Below, piece after piece: positions 1 through 9,759 of a DNA stretch of 10,236 nt. This stretch comes from Hyphomicrobiales bacterium (GTDB taxonomy: Bacteria > Pseudomonadota > Alphaproteobacteria > Rhizobiales > JAJFHB01), in NCBI GenBank assembly GCA_021775795.1, contig JAJFHB010000705.1, positions 1 to 10,236 on the forward strand. Reading direction: 5' to 3'. The notes under the pieces are model-generated. The model saw only the letters and a list, made by a program, of their open reading frames with translations, did not search any database and was not told the origin of the DNA. Positions within the stretch are counted from its first letter, which is position 1. Each line of letters opens with the position of its first letter. The position numbers and the translations under genes were made by a program.

Positions 1-399
1 TTCCGCGGCGGCCGGCCGCGCGCCCTTTCCGATCCCGATATCAGAGGCTTTCAGGCGTCAGCAACCGCCTGGCCGATAACTTTTGTAAGCGGCTCTACAG
101 AGTTGACGGAAAAATCCCGGGCAGCCATTGATGACCTCTGGCTGCAGATGTCTTACGAGGATTTTCCGCCCATCACGTTAGTCGGCTACACCGACACCCG
201 AGGCAGCGCCTCTGCCAATGAACGGCTTTCTCTGAGCCGGGCACAGGCCGTGGCGGACTATCTCGAAGGCAAAGGCTATGAGGGCGAGATCAACGTCGAT
301 GGACGCGGAGAGAGTGCGCCGTATGCGCCCCTCGATGTGGACCACTACACAAGTGACGATCTCCTGCTCATGAGCAGACGCGTTGATCTGGTGAGATAA
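1..399 (+). CDS. OmpA-family peptidoglycan-binding protein, C-terminal part (5' end outside window)
   Basis: The frame is open from base 1 to TAA at 397-399, so the gene begins upstream; a TTG at 103 is internal, because the OmpA domain already starts before it (W-P-I-T-F-V-S-G-S-T-E-L at about 70-105). The visible 132 residues hold an OmpA C-terminal domain. Its signature is V-G-Y-T-D-T-R-G, with the meso-diaminopimelate-binding Asp at 193-195, then L-S-L-S-R-A and G-R-G-E-S, ending in S-R-R-V-D-L-V-R. Proteins of this family bind peptidoglycan non-covalently in the periplasm. Two positions are unusual: Tyr replaces His of GHTD, and Ser replaces Asn of the usual N-R-R. The segment before the domain (R-G-G-R-P ... 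I-R-G-F) aligns with the next gene, so the two are tandem paralogues. The N-terminal architecture is not visible. Confidence 0.88.
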   Translation, partial: FRGGRPRALSDPDIRGFQASATAWPITFVSGSTELTEKSRAAIDDLWLQMSYEDFPPITLVGYTDTRGSASANERLSLSRAQAVADYLEGKGYEGEINVDGRGESAPYAPLDVDHYTSDDLLLMSRRVDLVR

Positions 400-404
400 A
401 TGCC

Positions 405-455
405 ATTTCGCGCACGAAATTTAATGTTTGAAAGGCGTGTTTAATGTTCCACGCC
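405..455. repeat. Two short hairpins and a 20-bp-spaced direct repeat after the first OmpA gene
   Basis: Six bases after the stop codon, ATTTCG (405-410) and CGAAAT (415-420) form a perfect 6-bp inverted repeat with a 4-base loop. GGCGTG (434-439) and CACGCC (450-455) form a second one with a 10-base loop. The nine bases TTTAATGTT occur at 420-428 and again at 440-448, exactly 20 bp apart, which is about two helical turns. The hairpins might be a weak transcript end for the first gene, but neither is followed by a clear T run. The spaced repeat could be a regulator site on one DNA face. The structure is seen; the role is inferred. Confidence 0.4.
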
Positions 456-528
456 ACATTTCGCCCGGGTCGTGGTCGGCATTTTGGTTGGACGTGCCAC
501 AGACTGACGGCGGAATTCTCTAATGAAC

Positions 529-556
529 TTGTGAACATGCGTAGTTGCACTAAACT
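529..556 (+). promoter_or_regulatory. Candidate sigma-70-type promoter of the OmpA/caspase operon
   Basis: TTGTGA (529-534) and TAAACT (551-556) lie 16 bp apart; each matches 4 of 6 bases of the -35 and -10 consensus. Transcription would begin near 563, giving a leader of about 50 nt before the ATG at 614. The match is weak and rests on spacing and position only. Confidence 0.28.
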
Positions 557-574
557 TTGAAACCAGGGTGACAC

Positions 575-590
575 TGTGATCCGCCTAACA
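575..590. promoter_or_regulatory. CRP-type operator candidate upstream of the OmpA/caspase operon
   Basis: TGTGA-tccgcc-TAACA matches the TGTGA-N6-TCACA operator at 9 of 10 defined bases, and the flanking C574 and G591 extend the symmetry (CTGTGA / TAACAG). It ends 23 bp before the ATG of the first complete operon gene. At that position a bound Crp protein could not act as a class I or II activator of this start, but it could block transcription from the candidate promoter at 529-556. A Crp-type regulator with matching recognition residues is encoded at 5468-6184. A single degenerate site can arise by chance, so this is moderate evidence. Confidence 0.42.
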
Positions 591-613
591 GACGATCAAG
601 GAGAATTGCTTTG

Positions 614-1531
614 ATGAGGACCGCAAAACTGCTCGCAACAGCGAGTATTCTTTTCACGGCCGCAACATTCGGCAGCGCTCACGCGGCTTCGAATTGCACC
701 GAATTACGGTCAGAAATTGAGGGTACAGGAACCGATGCATCCTCGCAGTCACTCATCTCGTTCCACGAGATGGCATTGAACATGTCAGACTGCGATGACG
801 CCCTTTCGGAATATCTGCTGCGGCGCATTGCTGTGACCCTGTCTCGCGAAGCAGAAGCTCCAGGCATTGGAGAAGCCCAGCGCCTCGCCATGCTTGAAGA
901 CAGCCTTGCGTATCATCGCCTGTGGCAGGTCCTCAAGCAGTTGGGCGACGAGGCCTATGATCAGGAAGATTATACATCAGCGGCCACCCGCTATCAGCAG
1001 GCGCTTGAAACCATTGATGATCCCGAAGCAACCGCGGACCGTCACGTTCCCGAACGTCCCATCGTCGAAGAAATCTTTCGCCTTGCGGAAATTTCGCGTC
1101 TGCTGGCTGACGAATATGTCGCCGTGCCCCTCAACCGCGATGGCGAGCCAACCGGACTGGGAGCTCCCAGTGTAAGAGGCTACGAGTTCAGTGTCGTCTC
1201 GGTACCGGTCACATTCGTTTATGACAAAACCCAATTCGACGAACAGGGCCAACTCGCCGTGCAGGATCTGCTATCCCAACTGCAGGCTCAGGGCGAGCCG
1301 GATATTACCCTGGTGGGACACACCGACCCGCGCGGCAGCAATCAGTACAACATGGGGTTGTCCGAAGGTCGCGCCATGAGCGTCGCCATGTTCCTGCGCC
1401 AGAACAACTACGGTGGAAACATCACAACAGTTGGCCGTGGCGAAGAAGAGCCCTTTGCCGTGCCTGAGGGAATGCAACTTCCCCAGCCCGAAATGTTTCG
1501 TCTGTTCCGGCGTGTGGAGATGCAAAGATGA
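614..1531 (+). CDS. Secreted OmpA-family protein with TPR-like N-terminal region
   Basis: A 305-residue exported protein predicted to bind peptidoglycan in the periplasm. A signal peptide covers about residues 1-24 (hydrophobic core, G-S-A-H-A before the cut). The helical middle includes a single TPR-like unit at about 107-135 (G-D-E-A-Y ... Y-Q-Q-A-L). The OmpA domain covers about 197-305, with G-H-T-D at 235-238, L-S-x-G-R-A, G-R-G-E and R299-R300. The usual Asn before the RR pair is Phe. C28 and C60 could form a disulfide. AAGGAG at 598-603 serves either ATG 614 (10-nt spacing) or an in-frame TTG at 611 (7 nt); ATG was chosen. The stop overlaps the next gene's start by four bases (ATGA), which suggests translational coupling. 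No transmembrane barrel is evident, so it is a soluble OmpA-domain protein rather than a porin. Confidence 0.87.
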   Translation: MRTAKLLATASILFTAATFGSAHAASNCTELRSEIEGTGTDASSQSLISFHEMALNMSDCDDALSEYLLRRIAVTLSREAEAPGIGEAQRLAMLEDSLAYHRLWQVLKQLGDEAYDQEDYTSAATRYQQALETIDDPEATADRHVPERPIVEEIFRLAEISRLLADEYVAVPLNRDGEPTGLGAPSVRGYEFSVVSVPVTFVYDKTQFDEQGQLAVQDLLSQLQAQGEPDITLVGHTDPRGSNQYNMGLSEGRAMSVAMFLRQNNYGGNITTVGRGEEEPFAVPEGMQLPQPEMFRLFRRVEMQR

Positions 1532-3303
1532 GGAGTTCGTTTCGGGCGAAACGTTTTGGAGCATTGCTGGCCGCGGGCATAACGATGCTGGCCATGTCAG
1601 CAAGCGCAAGAGCTGAATTTTACGGACTTGTGGTCGGCATCAACGAGTATCAAAGTGATCGCTTGCGTGATCTCCACGGCGCCGTAAACGACGCCAATGA
1701 TATTCGCGATGCGCTGATGACTGCGGGCGCCACGCACGTTACGCAACTTCTCGACAGCGATGCCACCAGATCCCAGATATTCGGCGCCTGGGATGACCTC
1801 GTTTCCCGGGCAAAGCCCGGTGACACCATCGTCTTCACTTACGCCGGCCACGGTGCCCAACAACCTGAAAGGGTTGCAGGCAGTGAAGAAGACGGCCGCG
1901 ATGAGATGTTTCAATTGCACGGCTTTCAAACCGACGCCAGTGGCAATCAGGAGCGAATTCTCGATGACGAGTTGAACCAGCTGTTTGCACGAACAAGCCA
2001 CTTGAGAATCGTATTTGTGGCGGATTCCTGCCATTCTGGCACCATGTCGCGCAACTTCGATACCCGCGCCGGTGAGCTTTCGACCCGCGGTGGCGGTTAC
2101 GAGGTCATTGAAGACGACCAGCTTCCCCCGGCAAATGCAGAAGCCGCGGCAATAACCGAAGATCAGCTCGAGCATGTTTTGTTTTTCGGTGCCGTGAAAG
2201 ATTCCCAGCTTGTTGTGGAATTGCCCGTCGAGCAACAAATGCGCGGCGTCATGTCGTGGGCCTTTGCCCGTGCCCTTCGCGGCGCAGCCGATGCAAACAA
2301 GGATCTGGTGCTGCATGGCCGGGAACTTGAGATATTCCTGCGCGAAACCGTTCGCATAGTCTCAGAAGGGCGCCAATTGCCCCAGATGGCCCGCCGTGCA
2401 CGCAACGATGAAATCGCATTAATTCTGCCCGGCGGTACCGCTCCTGAAGCGAATGAACCCGAAATCGCAAACGGGAACGATGGCAACACGAACGGTAACG
2501 GCAACGATTCTCAGTCGGGAATTTCCCAATCCGGAAGTCCAGAGTCTGGAAATCCAGAGTCTGGCAACGGCCAGCAGGCCTCCGCTCCTCCCGAGGGACC
2601 CGACAGCGTGGCCTTGCACATCATAGGAACGCGCAGCCGCGAAAGCCTGTTTTCTCAACTGACAGATGTTTCTCCAGCCCAGGAAGGCCTTGCTGAACTC
2701 ATTTGGGATGTTGGGGAAAATGAAATCATCAGCGCAAGCGGCGATATCGTGGCCCGGCTTGCCCCCGATTCCGGCCCGGAACAGATTCAGCCCCTGATCG
2801 ACAAATGGTTGCTTCTGCGGCAATTGGCGAGGCTTGCCGGCTCGGAACCACTGAGCCTCAGGTTTCAACCCTATGACCGCCAGAACAGTTTGCCTTCGGA
2901 AGACAAAACGGATGTGTCTGGTGATGTCCATCCGGAAGGCACGACACTCAATTTCGAAGTGAACGGTCATGAGCACGAACACATGACAGTGTTCAACCTC
3001 GCGATGGATGGACGGGTGCAATATCTCATCCCTGTACCTGGTGATCGTGAAAAAGCCTACAGAGGCGAAGCGTTTGCGGGCGAAACCTACCAGTTTCCGC
3101 TGGTCGTCCAGGGCCCCGGGCCGTTTGGCGCCGAACATCTTGTGGTGCTCGCAAGCCCCTCACCTCTGCCCGATCTGCATCGCGAAATTAATCGCCTGAA
3201 CGAAACTGCAAGCGCCGGCGAGTTGCGCGACATTCTCCAACAACATCTCGCAGGTGTGACGTTCCAGGCAGGCTACGTCACCTTGTTCTCATCACCCAAC
3301 TAA
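1528..3303 (+). CDS. Secreted caspase-like cysteine peptidase (C14 family), periplasmic
   Basis: A 591-residue protein with a signal peptide (about 1-29, S-A-R-A|E). The caspase p20-like domain (about 30-300) begins F-Y-G-L-V-V-G-I-N-E-Y and has catalytic His108 in Y-A-G-H-G and Cys168 in D-S-C-H-S-G. Between them, E-E-D-G-R-D-E (120-126) resembles the acidic segment that metacaspases use to recognise basic P1 residues. Residues 255-266 resemble an EF-hand loop, but the central Gly is Leu. An Asn/Gly/Ser-rich linker (about 303-358) leads to a C-terminal region (about 360-591) in which 475-505 weakly resembles DUF4384. The start overlaps the previous stop (ATGA), and the next gene begins 10 bp downstream. 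Both catalytic residues are present, so an active peptidase is likely; the substrate is unknown. Confidence 0.88.
   Translation: MRSSFRAKRFGALLAAGITMLAMSASARAEFYGLVVGINEYQSDRLRDLHGAVNDANDIRDALMTAGATHVTQLLDSDATRSQIFGAWDDLVSRAKPGDTIVFTYAGHGAQQPERVAGSEEDGRDEMFQLHGFQTDASGNQERILDDELNQLFARTSHLRIVFVADSCHSGTMSRNFDTRAGELSTRGGGYEVIEDDQLPPANAEAAAITEDQLEHVLFFGAVKDSQLVVELPVEQQMRGVMSWAFARALRGAADANKDLVLHGRELEIFLRETVRIVSEGRQLPQMARRARNDEIALILPGGTAPEANEPEIANGNDGNTNGNGNDSQSGISQSGSPESGNPESGNGQQASAPPEGPDSVALHIIGTRSRESLFSQLTDVSPAQEGLAELIWDVGENEIISASGDIVARLAPDSGPEQIQPLIDKWLLLRQLARLAGSEPLSLRFQPYDRQNSLPSEDKTDVSGDVHPEGTTLNFEVNGHEHEHMTVFNLAMDGRVQYLIPVPGDREKAYRGEAFAGETYQFPLVVQGPGPFGAEHLVVLASPSPLPDLHREINRLNETASAGELRDILQQHLAGVTFQAGYVTLFSSPN
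2538..2564 (+). repeat. 12-bp direct repeat in the caspase linker
   Basis: TCCAGAGTCTGG occurs at 2538-2549 and 2553-2564, a 15-bp period that keeps frame and encodes repeated P-E-S-G-N. It lies in the low-complexity linker of the first caspase-like protein and looks like replication-slippage expansion of a flexible tether. Confidence 0.7.
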
Positions 3304-3313
3304 AGGGAAGCAC

Positions 3314-4768
3314 ATGCCGATGACTGTCCCCCACAAGACATTTGCACGCTCCATGGCTGTGCTCGGACTGACGGTTTCCATTCCCCTTGCGGCCACTGCG
3401 GCACAAGCGGGTCAACGCGCGCTTTTGATCGGTATTGAAGAGTATCAAAACGTGGCGCAGTTGGAGGGCCCGGTAGACGACGCCATGAGCATGCAGAGTT
3501 TTCTCATGGAACACATGGGCTTTCAGCAGCAGGACATCGCTCTTATTGCAAACGAACAGGCCACAAATGCGGGCATTCAGAACGCTTTCAAGCAATTCTT
3601 GGTCAACGGCACACAACCTGGCGACCGCGTTGTCATTTATTATTCAGGTCACGGCGGCCAGGTACCCGATACCAATGGCGATGAAGAAGACAAGCTCGAT
3701 GAAACCCTCGTTCCCGTGGATGCAAGGGATGATTCTCCCGACGACCATCGGCAGCTGACTGATGATGATTTTGGTGCTCTGCTGGCAATGCTGGAAGGTC
3801 GTGATGTCACGGTAATTATCGACGCCTGCCATTCAGGAACAATCGCGCGCGGTCTCGCTGAACCAACTGAGGGCAGCTCAGTTTCTGCTCGCACTCCGCT
3901 CCAGGGCGGAGGCGCTCGCGCTGCACCTGAATCAATTATGGCGCACCGGGAAGAGGAAAGTTATGTCACCGCCACTCCCGGCATGCGCGTCTGGTCCGCC
4001 GCCTCGGCCTTCCAGTACGCCTGGGAAGAAAACGGCGTTGGTCTCTTCACGAAGTACTTTATCGAAGGCGCCGGCGAGCGGCTGGCCGATATGAATGGTA
4101 ACGGTGTGGTCTCAAACGCCGAGCTGATCGCCTACGTCAGAGACAAGTCTGAAGCATGGTGCAGAATGACACCGGACTGCGCCAACCTAAGTCTCGGACT
4201 TACCCCGGTTCTTGAAGCGTCTTCTGAGGACATGGCGAAAATCTTCGTCCCCATTGGCGCCCCCCCTGCTGCCGAACCGGATGAGATTATCGTCCAGGAC
4301 AACCAGGCAAACATTGAAATCGCCGTTCTGCCCTCGAACCAGAACAAAGTCGGTGAACAGGTTTGGTTCGAAGTGACCAGTGAGCAGGAAGGTTGGCTTA
4401 TCCTGCTCGACATCAACGCTGATGGCGAGATCGTGCAGCTCATTCCGAACAGTCTGATGAGCGAAGACGACATGAGCCACAGGATCCCGGCAGGTCAGCC
4501 TGTGAAAGTGCCAGGCGATGCATCCAATCTGATCTTTACGGCCGCTGAGCCGGTTGGCGATGGCATGCTTGTCGCCATTGTCACCGAAGACAATGTTGAT
4601 CTGGACCAGGTTCTTGCCCCCGGCAACGACCTCAATCCGGTCGAGGATCCGCAGGCCTATCTATCTGAGATTTCCCGGGCCCTGACGCGGGTCTGGAGTC
4701 GCGATGATTCTGCAAACCGGGAACTGAACTGGTCCATGACCACATTTCCCTACACAATTTCCCGCTAG
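3314..4768 (+). CDS. Secreted metacaspase-like peptidase with EF-hand-type loop and DUF4384-like tail
   Basis: A 484-residue protein with a signal peptide (about 1-32, A-Q-A|G). The caspase/metacaspase domain (about 33-300) has catalytic His113 in Y-Y-S-G-H-G-G-Q and Cys172 in D-A-C-H-S-G. Between them is the acidic metacaspase segment N-G-D-E-E-D-K-L-D-E-T-L (121-132). Residues 259-270 (D-M-N-G-N-G-V-V-S-N-A-E) fit the 12-residue EF-hand loop pattern at every ligand position, which suggests calcium binding. C283 and C289 could form a disulfide in the periplasm. Residues about 338-430 resemble DUF4384 (V-W-F-E-V ... G-W-L-I-L-L-D ... I-V-Q-L-I-P-N), a domain often attached to bacterial caspase-like proteins. 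AAGGGAAG just before the ATG is the likely ribosome site; an ATG at 3320 is an alternative. It is a diverged relative of the preceding gene, not a recent duplicate. Confidence 0.9.
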   Translation: MPMTVPHKTFARSMAVLGLTVSIPLAATAAQAGQRALLIGIEEYQNVAQLEGPVDDAMSMQSFLMEHMGFQQQDIALIANEQATNAGIQNAFKQFLVNGTQPGDRVVIYYSGHGGQVPDTNGDEEDKLDETLVPVDARDDSPDDHRQLTDDDFGALLAMLEGRDVTVIIDACHSGTIARGLAEPTEGSSVSARTPLQGGGARAAPESIMAHREEESYVTATPGMRVWSAASAFQYAWEENGVGLFTKYFIEGAGERLADMNGNGVVSNAELIAYVRDKSEAWCRMTPDCANLSLGLTPVLEASSEDMAKIFVPIGAPPAAEPDEIIVQDNQANIEIAVLPSNQNKVGEQVWFEVTSEQEGWLILLDINADGEIVQLIPNSLMSEDDMSHRIPAGQPVKVPGDASNLIFTAAEPVGDGMLVAIVTEDNVDLDQVLAPGNDLNPVEDPQAYLSEISRALTRVWSRDDSANRELNWSMTTFPYTISR

Positions 4769-4788
4769 GCTGACAGCCAAACGTCAGC
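4769..4788 (+). other. Intercistronic hairpin between the metacaspase and the last OmpA gene
   Basis: Directly after the TAG, GCTGAC (4769-4774) and GTCAGC (4783-4788) form a perfect 6-bp stem with an 8-base loop. No T run follows, so full termination is unlikely. It may partly attenuate transcription or protect the upstream mRNA end, which would set the terminal OmpA gene at a different level from the proteases. Confidence 0.5.
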
Positions 4789-4815
4789 TCTGTAACAGCA
4801 AGTAAAGAGGTCAAA

Positions 4816-5445
4816 ATGAACGTCAAATCAGCAGCAAAATGGACCGGCATTCTCACCGCCGTCGCCATCCTCTCCGGGACGGCCAGCGCCCAGGACACAT
4901 CTCGATACCGGACCATGGTGGAAGAGGACGTGACAACTGAAGCCATCATCAGATCTCTTGATTCGCCTGACGCCCCTGACGGCGCCGAAGTCAGCATCGC
5001 TGCTCCGGTGACTTTCCAGTTTGATTCAGCCCAACTTGCCCGCAATGCACAAGGCCTGCTGGACCGCATAGCAGCCGCCCTGACAGCGCCCGAGTTTGAA
5101 GGCGAACGCTTTGTTGTCGAAGGCCATACGGATGCCAAAGGCAGTGAACCCTACAATCAGGCTCTTTCAGAAAGGCGCGCTGCGGCAGTGTTCAATTACC
5201 TCGTAAGCCGGGGTGTGAGCATTTCGAACATCAGTGCAGTGGGATACGGAGAAAGCCGCTCACTTCCCAACATGAACCCGCTAGATGGCCAGAATCGTCG
5301 CGTTGAAGTGGTTCGATTGCCGGCCGATGGCGCAGGATCATCATCCGGACAGGCACCAGAAGGGCAGCAGGCTCCGGAAGGGCAACAGGCACCAGAAGGA
5401 CAACAAGGACAGGCTCCAGCTGGACAGGCGCCTTCGAACGACTAG
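4816..5445 (+). CDS. OmpA-family peptidoglycan-binding protein with repetitive Q/P/G/E tail
   Basis: A 209-residue exported protein. It has a signal peptide (about 1-25, A-S-A|Q), a short linker and an OmpA domain at about 63-168: P-V-T-F-Q-F-D-S-A-Q-L, G-H-T-D at 103-106, L-S-E-R-R-A, G-Y-G-E and N-R-R-V-E at 160-164. This is the most canonical of the three OmpA domains, with both peptidoglycan-contact positions (D106 and the N160-R-R motif) intact. After it comes a disordered tail with three A-P-E-G-Q-Q units and a looser G-Q-A-P run, ending S-N-D. AGAGG at 4806-4810 gives a good ribosome site for the ATG at 4816. The gap of 47 bp and the shared strand place it at the end of the caspase operon. 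No membrane anchor or lipobox is seen. Its likely role is a soluble wall-binding partner or scaffold. Confidence 0.9.
   Translation: MNVKSAAKWTGILTAVAILSGTASAQDTSRYRTMVEEDVTTEAIIRSLDSPDAPDGAEVSIAAPVTFQFDSAQLARNAQGLLDRIAAALTAPEFEGERFVVEGHTDAKGSEPYNQALSERRAAAVFNYLVSRGVSISNISAVGYGESRSLPNMNPLDGQNRRVEVVRLPADGAGSSSGQAPEGQQAPEGQQAPEGQQGQAPAGQAPSND
5353..5406 (+). repeat. Three 18-bp tandem repeats encoding A-P-E-G-Q-Q
   Basis: Three consecutive 18-bp units encode A-P-E-G-Q-Q at residues 180-197 of the terminal OmpA protein. They are identical as protein but differ at several third-codon positions, so the peptide repeat appears to be kept while the DNA drifts. Confidence 0.85.
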
Positions 5446-5467: not shown

Positions 5468-6184
5468 TCATTCCATTTGATCTGCGATGTCTTCGAGACG
5501 CTCCAGATTTGTAATGACAATGGTGCCACGTGCGAGTTTCAGGATGCCATCTGATCGCCACTTGCCAAGTTGACGATTGACCGCCTCGCGGGTGGCATCC
5601 ACCATCGCCCCCAGTTCCGACTGGTTGATGGAGAGATCCAGTTTGATACCGTCTTCATCGCTTTCGCTGAAATACTCGGCGAAGGCGATGAGCTTTTTGG
5701 CAAGGCGCGCTTCCAGTTCCAAAAATGCAACATCTTCAATGTGATCCGTTGAATACCTGATTCGACGGCAAAGCACGTTCATCAGGCCGATCGCCATATG
5801 AGGATCCCGCCGCAGCAACGGCAGAAAGTTGCGGCGCTCCAGTTCAAGCAAGTCGCACTTTTCGAGCGCCGTTGCATCTGCTGTGCGCTCTTCTCCATCG
5901 AGAAACGCAATTTCGCCGAACACTTCGCCAGGGTTCATGATGTTGAAAACGATTTCCCGATCCTGATCATCGACGGTGGAATGCGACGTGATCTTCACAC
6001 GGCCGTTCACGACCACATACATGGATCGCCCTTCGTCATGCTTGTGGAAGACAGGCTGCGCCTTCGACAATTCGACAACACGGCACCAGGGCGCCAACCG
6101 GGCAAGATCTTCTTCCTGAACGTTCTCGAACAGTTCCAGACCCTGGAGCATCTCTTTCTTCTGTTTGTCCGACAAAAATGCCAT
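5468..6184 (-). CDS. Crp/Fnr-family transcriptional regulator, Crp-type (cyclic nucleotide binding)
   Basis: A 238-residue regulator. The N-terminal beta-roll (about 15-130) contains the phosphate-binding cassette F-G-E-I-A-F-L-D-G-E-E-R-T-A at 89-102, whose E91, R100 and T101 correspond to the cAMP-contacting Glu, Arg and Ser of E. coli CRP. The dimer helix has S145-T146 where CRP has T127-S128. The winged HTH (about 184-226) carries a recognition helix with R199-E200-A-V-N-R204, matching R180-E181-x-x-x-R185 of CRP, so TGTGA half-sites are expected. No Fnr-type N-terminal cysteine cluster is present, which argues against oxygen sensing through Fe-S. A GGGGA run just upstream of the ATG is a plausible ribosome site. 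It converges with the caspase operon, 22 bp between stops. The cyclic-nucleotide ligand is inferred, not shown. Confidence 0.92.
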   Translation of the reverse strand: MAFLSDKQKKEMLQGLELFENVQEEDLARLAPWCRVVELSKAQPVFHKHDEGRSMYVVVNGRVKITSHSTVDDQDREIVFNIMNPGEVFGEIAFLDGEERTADATALEKCDLLELERRNFLPLLRRDPHMAIGLMNVLCRRIRYSTDHIEDVAFLELEARLAKKLIAFAEYFSESDEDGIKLDLSINQSELGAMVDATREAVNRQLGKWRSDGILKLARGTIVITNLERLEDIADQME

Positions 6185-6466
6185 GCAAATTTCCCCGCAA
6201 ATTTCGGTCAGATGGTGCCATGGCCGTAAACCACAGAGGCCCGCCCACTGTCCGAAGATTGATCAGTTTAACCCCTTTCACAGTGATATGAAATCGACTT
6301 AACCGGCTTTTCAGGCCTGTTCGCATCTCATTTGTCAAAGGCCGAAGAACGGCAAGTCAGCATTCCGGCAAAACGGGCTGCAACGAGCCGGAAACTACTC
6401 TTTCCCGGGCCTCAGACCACAACAAAAATTCTGTGAATGATGTTTTTTGACTGCTGTGAAAGAGGT

Positions 6467-6482
6467 TGTGATGTGCGTCACA
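6467..6482. promoter_or_regulatory. Perfect CRP-type operator TGTGA-N6-TCACA
   Basis: TGTGA-tgtgcg-TCACA is an exact match to the CRP half-sites and spacing, and the flanking T6466 and A6483 extend the inverted repeat. It lies 283 bp upstream of the ATG of the Crp-type regulator, whose recognition helix fits this sequence. Autoregulation through a long leader is possible. On the + side, a TATATC element follows at the distance of a class II promoter, although no clear gene lies there. Confidence 0.72.
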
Positions 6483-6502
6483 AGCGCCACGTCCACATGG
6501 TC

Positions 6503-6902: not shown

Positions 6903-7460
6903 CTATTTCGAGAGTGTCAGGGACAAAATTGTGTAGGGCTGCCGGGTGGCGCGATTTTCGGATGTGATTGTATTCGTCAACTGCCCGCCCTCACCAGAAA
7001 GCTCCATGCTCAAGGAGCTAAGAGTGTCTTCACCGGTGCGCGTGTCATTGGTCGTGAGTTCCAATTCCAAAGACGTGCCCGTACGTCGGCCGGAAACAGA
7101 TGCCTGTCCATATCCCCCAGCCCGCCACTGACCGGTGATATAACTGTTGCGATCAAGAGACGAGAGAAAGCCCGAAGACGAAAATTCAAAGTCAGTGCCA
7201 CGGCAATCATAGTCCATGGACAGCCGCTCACTTGAGCTGTCCCATGTTGCCGTCATCCGGCAGCTGACGCGCTCGCGCTCTGCATCCGGGCTCTTGCGCA
7301 CCCGACCGTTGCCCCGCCATTCACCAACAAGACGCTGCAGCATTTCATTGTCGGCGGTGCCGGCAAAACTTGGTCCAACTGTTTCAAGGACAACGCCGAC
7401 GGCCAGACCAACCGCCAGCGTGCAGCTTAACAGCCCAGCTTTGCTAACCCATCCATTCAT
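6903..7460 (-). CDS. Small secreted beta-rich protein of unknown function
   Basis: A 185-residue protein, not assigned to a named family. It has a hydrophobic N-terminal segment (about 6-26) and a likely signal cleavage near P-S-F-A|G-T (33/34). The mature part opens with L-V-G-E-W-R-G-N-G-R-V (44-54). The G-x-W motif and the alternating polar/hydrophobic strands suggest a lipocalin-like or similar beta-barrel. C67 and C86 could form a disulfide. The ATG at 7458-7460 has AAGGGA nine bases upstream, preferred over a GTG at 7479-7481 that would add seven polar residues before the signal. It lies 22 bp downstream of the RND exporter on the same strand, so the two are probably co-transcribed. A role as a periplasmic binding partner for the exporter's substrate is a guess from context. 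Confidence 0.8.
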   Translation of the reverse strand: MNGWVSKAGLLSCTLAVGLAVGVVLETVGPSFAGTADNEMLQRLVGEWRGNGRVRKSPDAERERVSCRMTATWDSSSERLSMDYDCRGTDFEFSSSGFLSSLDRNSYITGQWRAGGYGQASVSGRRTGTSLELELTTNDTRTGEDTLSSLSMELSGEGGQLTNTITSENRATRQPYTILSLTLSK

Positions 7461-7482
7461 GCTGTCGCTTCCCTTGTGCACT

Positions 7483-9759
7483 CTATATTTGCCTCCACCG
7501 CTTTCCTGTCGTCAGCATCACGGCCGGCAGCACGATGACAGTGGCCAACAACGCAGTGCATAAGATTACTATGCAAAGCCTGCCGAAGAGAACCACCATC
7601 GGCAGCACGCTGAACTGTGTCACCAGCATACCCATCGCCAGTACGGCAGTTGCTGCTACGAGCACAGGACCGACTTTCAGCATCGTCTCCCCTAGCGCCA
7701 CGTCCACAGAGGTATTCTGGCGTTCCAGACGGTAGCGATGAATGAAATGCACCGTGTTATCTACCGCAATGCCGAAGGCGACCGTGAGTGCAATAGCGCT
7801 TGTGAACTGAAATCCTGCGCCCAGTACGGCAAGCGCTGCTGCCACGATCGAAAGGGACAACAGATTGGGTATGGCAGAGAATAGTGCCAGGAGCGGTTTT
7901 CTTACTGTTACGCCAATGACACATACAATCACCAGTATGGCCACACTGAGGCTGTTGCGCAGCCCCTCAATCAGTCGTCCACTCTCTGTGGCCGCAAGAG
8001 CGGCAACACCGGTTAAACTGACCTGATAGCCGGTTGCATCCGCCCGGACTGGCTGCAGTGCTGATTCAATATCTTGAAGCAAAAGCTCTGTCTCAGGCGC
8101 CGGCGCAGCCGGCACATAGGCCGAAACAAGCCATGCATTGCCGTCAGAACTGACAAAACGGGCGCTAAACTTGTCTGGCATTCGTGACAATGCATCTTCC
8201 ACATCTGGATCATCTGATGCAGGAGAGTGTTGCAACCAGGTCTCGGCACTTGCCAGCGAGATCACGTTTTCAACATTTTGAACGGACTGCACCGCCTCAT
8301 GCACGCTGCGTACCACTGACAAGTGGTCGGGACCTTCGCTCTGGTCACTCACATTTCGTTCGACAAGGGCAAATACAATTTCAGAACCGCCAAGTTTTTC
8401 GTTGATGCGCTCAAGGGCCAGATTGGCCGGGCTGCCGGGGGCAAGATATTCACGGTAGGAGTAGGTCGGAACCAGATTGAAATAGCCAAATCCGGTAACA
8501 GCGAGCACAGCGATGCTGGCAAGTGTAATGATACCCGGCCTCACAGACACCCCGCTCCACACCGCAGCACAGGCGCCTCTTGCCAACAGCATAAACCTGG
8601 CAGGTTCGACGAGCCTGGCTTCCGCTTTCGACCCGTCCAACATCACCACCGCCATGCTTGGTATCAAAGTGATGACGACGATAAACGCGATGAAGACAGC
8701 CGCCGCTCCCGAAATGCCGAAATCCCGAACTGCTGCAGATTCGCTCAATCCAAGCGAGAGCAAAGCTATGATCGTTGTTACAGAAGTGATGGCACAGGCA
8801 GGGCCAACTTCCGACACCGAGATTTTGCACGCCTCGCGCACCTCGCACCCGGAAGCCAACTTGCGCCGGATCGAGTTGACCATATGAAGCGCATCCGAGA
8901 ATCCGATGACCATGACCAGCGTCGGCAGTATGTTTGACATCGCCGATATGTCATGGCCTGCAAGCCCAAATCCGCCGAGCGTCCAGATCACGCCAATAAG
9001 CGGCGCGACACTTGCAAGAATCACCCAGACGGCGCGCCGGAAAAACAAAATGCAGACGAGAATTGAGATAAGTGCCCCAAGCCCGTTCAGGAAATGAAGG
9101 TCTGCCCTGATCGTTTGCAGGAGTTCGTAGCGCAGCACCGGAGCACCGGTTGGCACCACGCTCAGAGCAACATCCCTGGTGGCAAAGGCGACATTCTCGT
9201 CAATTTCCGTAAGGACCGCTTCAAGTTCATAGAATTCCCGCAATTGGGGCTCCAGTGAAATGATGATCAAGGTGGCATCGTTTGCCGCCGACAACATCTT
9301 GTTTGCGAGCAACGGATGTTCACGCGCTTCTTCAACAAGAGATGTGAGCGCTTCTCCGATTGGCAAATCATCCGGAAACACCGGATCAAGCTCACCGTCC
9401 TCCCCTGGCGCCCGGCGCGCTGTAAATATGGACGTCACCGCCACGACGCTTTCAACAAACTGCAAATCAAGATGCAATCCGCGCAACGCTTCCAGCTTCC
9501 CGGCATCAACAATGTTTTGAGATTCTATAAGCAGGAAGACCTGATTTTCGAGCTCGGGAAAGGCGCTGGTGAAACGGTCATAAACCTCAAACACCTCGCG
9601 TTCAGAGCGCAACAGGTTGCGCAAGTCATCGTCAAACTCGACCTTTGTTACGCCGAACAAGGCGACAAGCGTCACCGACGCAATGAGAAGAAGTGCTGCT
9701 CTTGGAGCCTTCAGACAAAGATGCCCAAGCCGCTCCAGACCAAACGCCTGTGTGTTCAT
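7483..9759 (-). CDS. RND-superfamily exporter, MMPL/HAE-3 type
   Basis: A 758-residue inner-membrane protein with the duplicated RND plan. One TM segment (about 21-38) is followed by a large periplasmic loop (about 39-225) and five TM segments (about 226-374). The second half repeats this: TM at about 408-426, loop about 430-600, and five TM segments to about 745. TM4 carries G-F-S-D-A-L-H (286-292) and TM10 carries G-I-A-V-D-N-T-V-H-F (663-672). The Asp residues, D289 and D667, are placed as in the proton-relay sites of this superfamily. At 758 residues it is shorter than AcrB-type drug pumps (about 1,030) and fits the HAE-3/MMPL/HpnN-like group, often linked to lipids or hydrophobic molecules. 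The substrate cannot be read from the sequence. No membrane-fusion or outer-membrane channel gene is nearby. Confidence 0.9.
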   Translation of the reverse strand: MNTQAFGLERLGHLCLKAPRAALLLIASVTLVALFGVTKVEFDDDLRNLLRSEREVFEVYDRFTSAFPELENQVFLLIESQNIVDAGKLEALRGLHLDLQFVESVVAVTSIFTARRAPGEDGELDPVFPDDLPIGEALTSLVEEAREHPLLANKMLSAANDATLIIISLEPQLREFYELEAVLTEIDENVAFATRDVALSVVPTGAPVLRYELLQTIRADLHFLNGLGALISILVCILFFRRAVWVILASVAPLIGVIWTLGGFGLAGHDISAMSNILPTLVMVIGFSDALHMVNSIRRKLASGCEVREACKISVSEVGPACAITSVTTIIALLSLGLSESAAVRDFGISGAAAVFIAFIVVITLIPSMAVVMLDGSKAEARLVEPARFMLLARGACAAVWSGVSVRPGIITLASIAVLAVTGFGYFNLVPTYSYREYLAPGSPANLALERINEKLGGSEIVFALVERNVSDQSEGPDHLSVVRSVHEAVQSVQNVENVISLASAETWLQHSPASDDPDVEDALSRMPDKFSARFVSSDGNAWLVSAYVPAAPAPETELLLQDIESALQPVRADATGYQVSLTGVAALAATESGRLIEGLRNSLSVAILVIVCVIGVTVRKPLLALFSAIPNLLSLSIVAAALAVLGAGFQFTSAIALTVAFGIAVDNTVHFIHRYRLERQNTSVDVALGETMLKVGPVLVAATAVLAMGMLVTQFSVLPMVVLFGRLCIVILCTALLATVIVLPAVMLTTGKRWRQI

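Follow-up and report, generated by a model that had tools for sequence, protein, structure and literature searches.

An OmpA-domain protein gene paired with a gene for a predicted metacaspase-type protease in an alphaproteobacterial operon and its relatives

Introduction

The association of OmpA domains with metacaspases is not new, because a 2012 survey found OmpA domains in 14 of the 217 metacaspase operons that it predicted (PMC3501461); its section on these operons calls the function of OmpA unclear and also gives a protease-plus-inhibition operon in four Rhizobium strains. Alphaproteobacterial proteins that combine a trypsin, a pseudo-orthocaspase and a DUF4384 domain have likewise been reported (PMC6426788). 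Metacaspases cleave after Arg or Lys, most of them requiring Ca2+ (PMC5756287), and in plants they are inhibited by serpins (PMC10609998). Here we analyse a stretch of 10,236 bases (hereafter the window) from a Hyphomicrobiales bacterium (contig JAJFHB010000705.1), in which two caspase homologs, Casp1 and Casp2, are encoded together with OmpA-domain proteins, one of which, OmpA2, is specified by a gene that overlaps that of Casp1. On a narrow balance of probability we read this locus as encoding a wall-tethered, exported pair of Arg/Lys-directed proteases that is CRP-controlled in this clade.

Results

The window comprises the whole of contig C674, one of 705 in a 3.6-Mb genome that is 71% complete, and the 5′ end of the gene cluster is therefore missing. 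Five open reading frames (ORFs) follow one another on the plus strand, namely ORF 1, an OmpA-domain ORF truncated 5′ by the contig edge (1–399; PF00691, 50.9 bits), OmpA2 (614–1531; OmpA domain, 44.6 bits; signal-like N-terminus), Casp1 (1528–3303; C14, 67.9 bits), Casp2 (3314–4768; C14, 87.2 bits; DUF4384, 51.6 bits) and OmpA3 (4816–5445; OmpA domain, 83.2 bits; a tail rich in Q, P, G and E). The DUF4384 match of Casp1 scores 24.5 bits, below the cut-off of 27, and reaches 28.4 bits in a separate genome-wide DUF4384 search. An earlier note on this DNA had described the order OmpA, OmpA, caspase, metacaspase, OmpA on one strand, with which the ORFs and Pfam matches agree, and the ATGA overlap of OmpA2 and Casp1 (1528–1531), the 10-bp gap between Casp1 and Casp2 (3304–3313) and the 47-bp gap between Casp2 and OmpA3 (4769–4815) all lie where it had placed them. 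ORF 1 and OmpA2 may be on separate transcripts, since they are 214 bp apart; in the nearest relative, locus L053 (the same stretch as L037), the position of ORF 1 (7077–7994) holds a full 306-aa OmpA2-cluster protein. Genomes carry 2–10 OmpA matches each (21 genomes), and in the source genome 3 of 6 OmpA matches and both DUF4384 matches fall inside the caspase cluster, a concentration that exceeds chance.

The linkage of OmpA and Casp1 recurs in relatives. A search with Casp1 of 61 genomes, the window's own included, matched 28, from which the 12 best non-own Casp1 loci formed a test set; 18 other caspase loci (the weaker best matches of 15 further genomes and three own-genome caspases) served as the control, the window loci and second gene segments (L004–L006, L034, L035) being excluded. 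Of the Casp1-type loci, 8 of 12 have an OmpA domain no farther than ~1.5 kb away, versus 0 of 18 other caspase loci, a comparison in which the OmpA profiles were partly built from the same family and some flanks were shorter. A scan of named genomes gave 81 Casp1 loci (the best 80 of 141 relatives plus the window), 67 of which have a same-strand ORF no more than 400 bp upstream of Casp1. These immediate upstream genes encode OmpA (30), C14 (12), WD40 (8) or cytochrome c (8) proteins among others, and the downstream genes (n = 66) include 24 for DUF4384 and 19 for C14 proteins. OmpA2 stands directly before Casp1 in 30 of the 81 loci, and in 17 of these pairs the two genes overlap by 4 bp. The order OmpA2-Casp1-Casp2 is seen in Roseibium aggregatum SY-2-12 (L116), and OmpA2-Casp1 in Halochromatium salexigens (L110). 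The OmpA-linked state (position −1 or −2), found in 31 of 81 rows, changes eight times on a quick Casp1 tree and spans Alphaproteobacteria, Gammaproteobacteria and Desulfobulbia, that is, three classes and two phyla. The linkage is real and goes beyond local chance, because most of the Casp1-type loci compared are flanked by OmpA and none of the other caspase loci is; the earlier note had named unlinked genes in relatives as a refutation, a test that the linkage survived. That the genes are mere neighbours held together by operon inertia, with no functional coupling, fits the 50 of 81 Casp1 loci that were not typed as OmpA-linked, but is barely credible against the skewed flanks, the exact overlap and the spread over two phyla.

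Other genes precede Casp1 in part of the set. Cytochrome c (cluster c19) is found upstream in L073, L091, L122, L123, L124, L125, L129 and L131 (Labrys, Methyloceanibacter and kin), and in most of these a gene of the cytochrome c′ cluster precedes c19. In L068, L074, L076, L077, L087, L105, L111 and L118 the gene directly upstream encodes a protein of 1,037–1,137 aa; that of L087, the one scanned of the eight, joins a WD40 propeller to a caspase domain.

The His-Cys dyads that the earlier note had called intact are so (H108/C168 and H113/C172 in Casp1 and Casp2). The Casp1 His and Cys and Asp166 are kept in 81 of 81 rows; relatives were scanned with the patterns GAVNDA[RNK]D and ADSCHSGT, the second of which contains the catalytic Cys and so biases towards it, yet the 31 rows that lack ADSCHSGT (present in 50 of 81) still keep the Cys. 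Other acidic residues, which with Asp166 are candidates for an acidic S1 pocket, are also widely kept (Asp122 in 75 and Asp125 in 73 of 81). Proteins at the Casp2 position keep the dyad in 18 of 20 cases, and all 20 keep a Cys pair; window Casp2 has Cys283/Cys289 and an EF-hand-like loop (residues 259–270; Pfam EF-hand matches below threshold), and the EF-hand-like pattern occurs in 58 of 81 Casp1 and 18 of 20 Casp2 proteins. Two Casp2-position proteins have degenerate dyads (L091, 10423–12030, and L124, 11281–13014; Tyr-Ser and Gln-Ser), and each adjoins a Casp1 with an intact dyad. A structural model of Casp1 places a caspase domain of metacaspase-type fold, with p20 and p10 parts, at residues 29–302, followed by a low-confidence linker (~311–352) and a C-terminal immunoglobulin-like (Ig-like) part of DUF4384 type, so that Casp1 is predicted to be a metacaspase-type fold plus an Ig-like domain. 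By dyad and, for Casp1, predicted fold, Casp1 and Casp2 belong to Peptidase C14 (metacaspase/orthocaspase).

OmpA2 has Cys28 and Cys60, an N-domain with sub-threshold TPR matches and an OmpA domain with Asp238 and Arg253, all four residues being kept in 40 of 40 OmpA2-cluster proteins. In Acinetobacter baumannii OmpA, Asp271 and Arg286 bind diaminopimelate (PMC5974059), and the spacing of 15 between them equals that of Asp238 and Arg253. With its PF00691 match and this putative diaminopimelate-contact pair, OmpA2 fits the OmpA-like peptidoglycan-binding domain as judged from sequence. Curated cut-offs for Pal, YiaD, the OmpA porin and other NCBIfam OmpA equivalogs were missed, the best scores being 90 of 175 bits for OmpA3 and 58.4 of 250 for OmpA2. 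The tail of OmpA3 (window 5342–5442) consists of repeated QAPEGQ-like units, free of Lys and Arg and rich in Q, P, G and E.

The earlier note had suggested that the OmpA proteins hold or present the proteases or else are their substrates, and that surveillance or lysis might be the output. Were OmpA2 and OmpA3 substrates, their cleavage would uncouple outer membrane and wall, as might serve vesicle shedding or a change of shape; the coupling of the genes and the invariance of the peptidoglycan-contact residues in 40 sequences would suit this. However, neither Casp1 residues 293–368, which span the linker, nor OmpA3 after residue 167 has a Lys or Arg, so that an Arg/Lys enzyme would spare both, and we regard the OmpA proteins as highly improbable substrates.

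Signal-like N-termini, called by one home-made and permissive rule for all proteins, occur in 79 of 81 Casp1 and 36 of 40 OmpA2 proteins versus 274 of 638 other ORFs, and all four complete products of the window operon pass the same rule, in line with the signal peptides claimed for them. Together with the invariant Cys pairs of OmpA2 and Casp2, these N-termini indirectly support export of Casp1 and Casp2.

Downstream of the operon and convergent with it lies a gene for a Crp/Fnr-family regulator (5468–6184, minus strand), found in the same place in L053, L055, L056 and L057. Using the E. coli CRP consensus as box pattern, we found a perfect palindrome, TTGTGA-N6-TCACAA (6466–6483; 12 of 12), centred 291 bp upstream of this crp-like gene, and a weak site (574–591; 9 of 12) centred 32 bp upstream of OmpA2. 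The crp ortholog of L055 also has an upstream box, and OmpA2 sites score 9 to 11 in five relatives. A search of 133 sequences (1.92 Mb) gave 15 sites scoring 11 or 12 of 12, which fall to 12 once duplicate loci are removed, and 9 of these 12 lie upstream of crp (window, L055), of OmpA2 (L053) or of the first caspase gene of Stappiaceae-type loci (L080, L088, L089, L092, L098 and L120, the L092 site being just inside the called ORF); by our own arithmetic chance would give ~4 boxes in 1.92 Mb and far fewer than one in these promoters. Within the window's clade, a score of at least 9 is reached by 8 of 13 regions upstream of OmpA2, crp or FecR genes versus 9 of 71 for other genes (Fisher p 4e-4; 200-bp regions, which leave the window's distant crp site uncounted). 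Over the whole set, scores of at least 10 are found for 2 of 5 crp genes (p 0.014) and 7 of 22 Sel1/PG caspase genes (p 3e-5) versus 14 of 398 others. Beside crp, on the minus strand, stand genes for a DUF1579-like protein (a sub-threshold match) and an MMPL transporter (pair at 6903–9759), a pair also seen beside crp in L036/L057 and L037/L053; the other flank genes include a glycerol-kinase end, again on the minus strand.

Domains of genes around Casp1 in relatives were assigned by running Pfam on cluster representatives, locus counts being cluster membership. Wall-facing partners include a SPOR-caspase (L070), a C14+Sel1+PG_binding_1 protein (L098; cluster in 25 loci), an M23 peptidase (L098; cluster in 20 loci) and a transglycosylase-transpeptidase upstream of OmpA2 in L040/L055. 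Of the 92 loci, 27 have a gene of the CHASE2-cyclase cluster, the Stappiaceae-type group accounting for 20 of these, and in L055, L056 and L057 crp, cyclase and DUF928 genes stand as a set convergent with the caspases. The source genome's own CHASE2-cyclase copy (C393) has motifs that are complete by regular expression save for one loose pattern.

The locus might instead be a self-killing or defence module, in which wall-held caspases would be freed on phage attack or envelope breach and would either cause lysis or act on invaders at the cell surface. In other settings caspase homologs have roles in death and defence, Stappiaceae operons have the M23 peptidase gene after that for CHASE2, and the family is sparsely distributed. 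Against this, PADLOC returned for five window proteins a generic caspase model and OmpA-domain matches to ZorB, and the remaining window genes are those for the regulator, the MMPL, DUF1579-like and glycerol-kinase proteins; we consider such a module unlikely. Among the scanned proteins of this contig no complete PADLOC system, Zorya included, was found, the ZorB matches being partial and no MotA-type gene standing among the nine window ORFs scanned.

Trypsins and serpins accompany some relatives. Two trypsins end the operon of L053, and the 92 loci encode eight trypsin-motif proteins, six of which have an Asp189-type pocket. Serpins, all Pfam-confirmed, occur in six loci, beside a trypsin or trypsin-caspase in L043, L084 and L106 and beside other caspases in L063, L119 and L130; in all six an Arg lies at most one residue from the predicted P1. 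In L153, L154 and L155 serpin genes likewise stand beside trypsin, trypsin-caspase or caspase genes. In a sample of the class, 8 of 385 genomes have a serpin (nine genes), which in four of the eight directly follows a trypsin-caspase-DUF4384 gene (G141, G256 and G349, which share a genus, and G347, which holds L084). For the remaining five serpin genes, the stretches examined show no neighbour of this kind. The window has no serpin, and its 71%-complete genome gave 0 serpin matches.

Ordinary periplasmic proteolysis, such as quality control or peptide scavenging with OmpA merely keeping the enzymes in the envelope, would accord with the two trypsins that close the L053/L037 operon, and CRP-type control would suit a nutritional role. 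The kept order of two caspases, the Arg/Lys specificity of the family (PMC5756287) and the serpins of some relatives instead indicate regulated cleavage, and we find this explanation rather doubtful.

Discussion

In the reading that we favour, a wall-tethered protease pair, OmpA2 would be secreted, fold with a disulphide and grip peptidoglycan by its OmpA domain, while its N-domain would hold Casp1, the product of the next, translationally coupled gene. Casp1 and its paralog Casp2 would be catalytically active metacaspase-type proteases with a His-Cys dyad, presumably cleaving after Arg or Lys and retained at the wall by OmpA2 and OmpA3, ready in the periplasm, which is rich in Ca2+. The Ig-like DUF4384 domains may dock partners or substrates. 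Transcription would be tied to the adjacent CRP-type regulator in this clade and, in relatives, to a CHASE2-cyclase sensing the outer side of the membrane. Our guess is that the most likely output is cleavage of envelope proteins when the envelope is stressed or remodelled.

Several observations weigh against this reading. The OmpA2–Casp1 mirror-tree correlation (r = 0.84) is uncorrected for the species tree, and the Casp1 family is sparse, being detected at E 1e-40 in 3 of 289 genomes of the class, one of which is the source genome; of the other two, G213 has OmpA2 directly upstream of Casp1 and G347 has it beside the trypsin-caspase. In G001, of the same family, Casp1 has no OmpA, a FecR gene lying upstream and a Sel1/PG-binding protein gene downstream, and other lineages have WD40-caspases or cytochrome c rather than OmpA upstream. 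Gating of the predicted proteases by Ca2+ is unsure because p10-less orthocaspases are reported to be Ca2+-independent (PMC5756287) and because the loop of window Casp1 fails the EF-hand-like pattern. As to regulation, the window's OmpA2 site is insignificant alone (p 0.08), the six Stappiaceae-type sites share a common descent and sit between divergently transcribed genes, a score of at least 9 is reached by 1 of 31 OmpA2 genes outside the clade, OmpA2 is unenriched at scores of at least 10 over the whole set (2 of 17 versus the same 398 others; p 0.14), and a gene of unknown function, c8, reaches that score as often (7 of 18). From these clade and whole-set counts we infer that CRP control is likely in two groups, the window's clade and the Stappiaceae group, rather than across the family. 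Cyclase motifs are moreover incomplete by regular expression in most linked CHASE2 proteins checked, including the crp-linked ones, where synthesis of cyclic AMP is therefore not assured.

A wider reading, for which we see a small but real chance, makes the window the core of an envelope proteolytic cascade with a logic like that of clotting or complement. Its parts would be the wall-anchored caspases, secreted Asp189-type trypsins, a serpin brake with Arg at P1 and the Ig-like domain for docking, with the CHASE2-cyclase sensing and cyclic AMP-CRP switching. The full set is found in no single locus: trypsins are in L053, cyclase and crp in L055, L056 and L057, and serpin with trypsin-caspase-DUF4384 in L043, L084, G141, G256 and G349. 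If this serpin/trypsin branch holds, bacteria would possess a protease cascade outside the cytoplasm together with a dedicated inhibitor, a finding relevant to how such cascades, and the metacaspase-serpin pairs of plants (PMC10609998), arose. The conserved coupling of a wall-binding protein with a caspase would itself give exported bacterial caspase homologs a defined partner, compartment and promoter.

Our searches of open-licence PMC papers turned up no characterised system arranged in this way. The earlier note, which knew of none, is borne out to that extent, and its envelope module of proteases and OmpA proteins is partly supported by the linkage and, indirectly, by the signs of export; the OmpA-metacaspase association itself was already on record. 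The operons of PMC3501461 share with the window OmpA domains next to metacaspases; the section on them gives counts and examples, leaving the coupling of OmpA and caspase, conserved residues and regulation untreated, and the coupled OmpA2–Casp1 unit with its regulator is treated neither there nor in the corresponding section of PMC6426788. The proteins of PMC6426788 resemble those of the window in having DUF4384 C-terminal to the caspase domain, and the L043 fusion shares their Gln variant (SGQG); the caspase part of the G141, G256 and G349 fusions fails the dyad pattern, as in those pseudo-orthocaspases. Unlike them, Casp1 and Casp2 lack a trypsin part and keep their dyads intact, and the L084 fusion keeps AGHG and CHAG. 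Compared with metacaspases of known structure (Metacaspase-1, -4 and -9 and MCA2 in PDB) and with GSU0716, Casp1 adds a signal-like N-terminus and a C-terminal Ig-like part, and the window genes stand in an operon with those for OmpA-domain proteins. For the combination of caspase and Ig domains, the near comparison is the MALT1 paracaspase.

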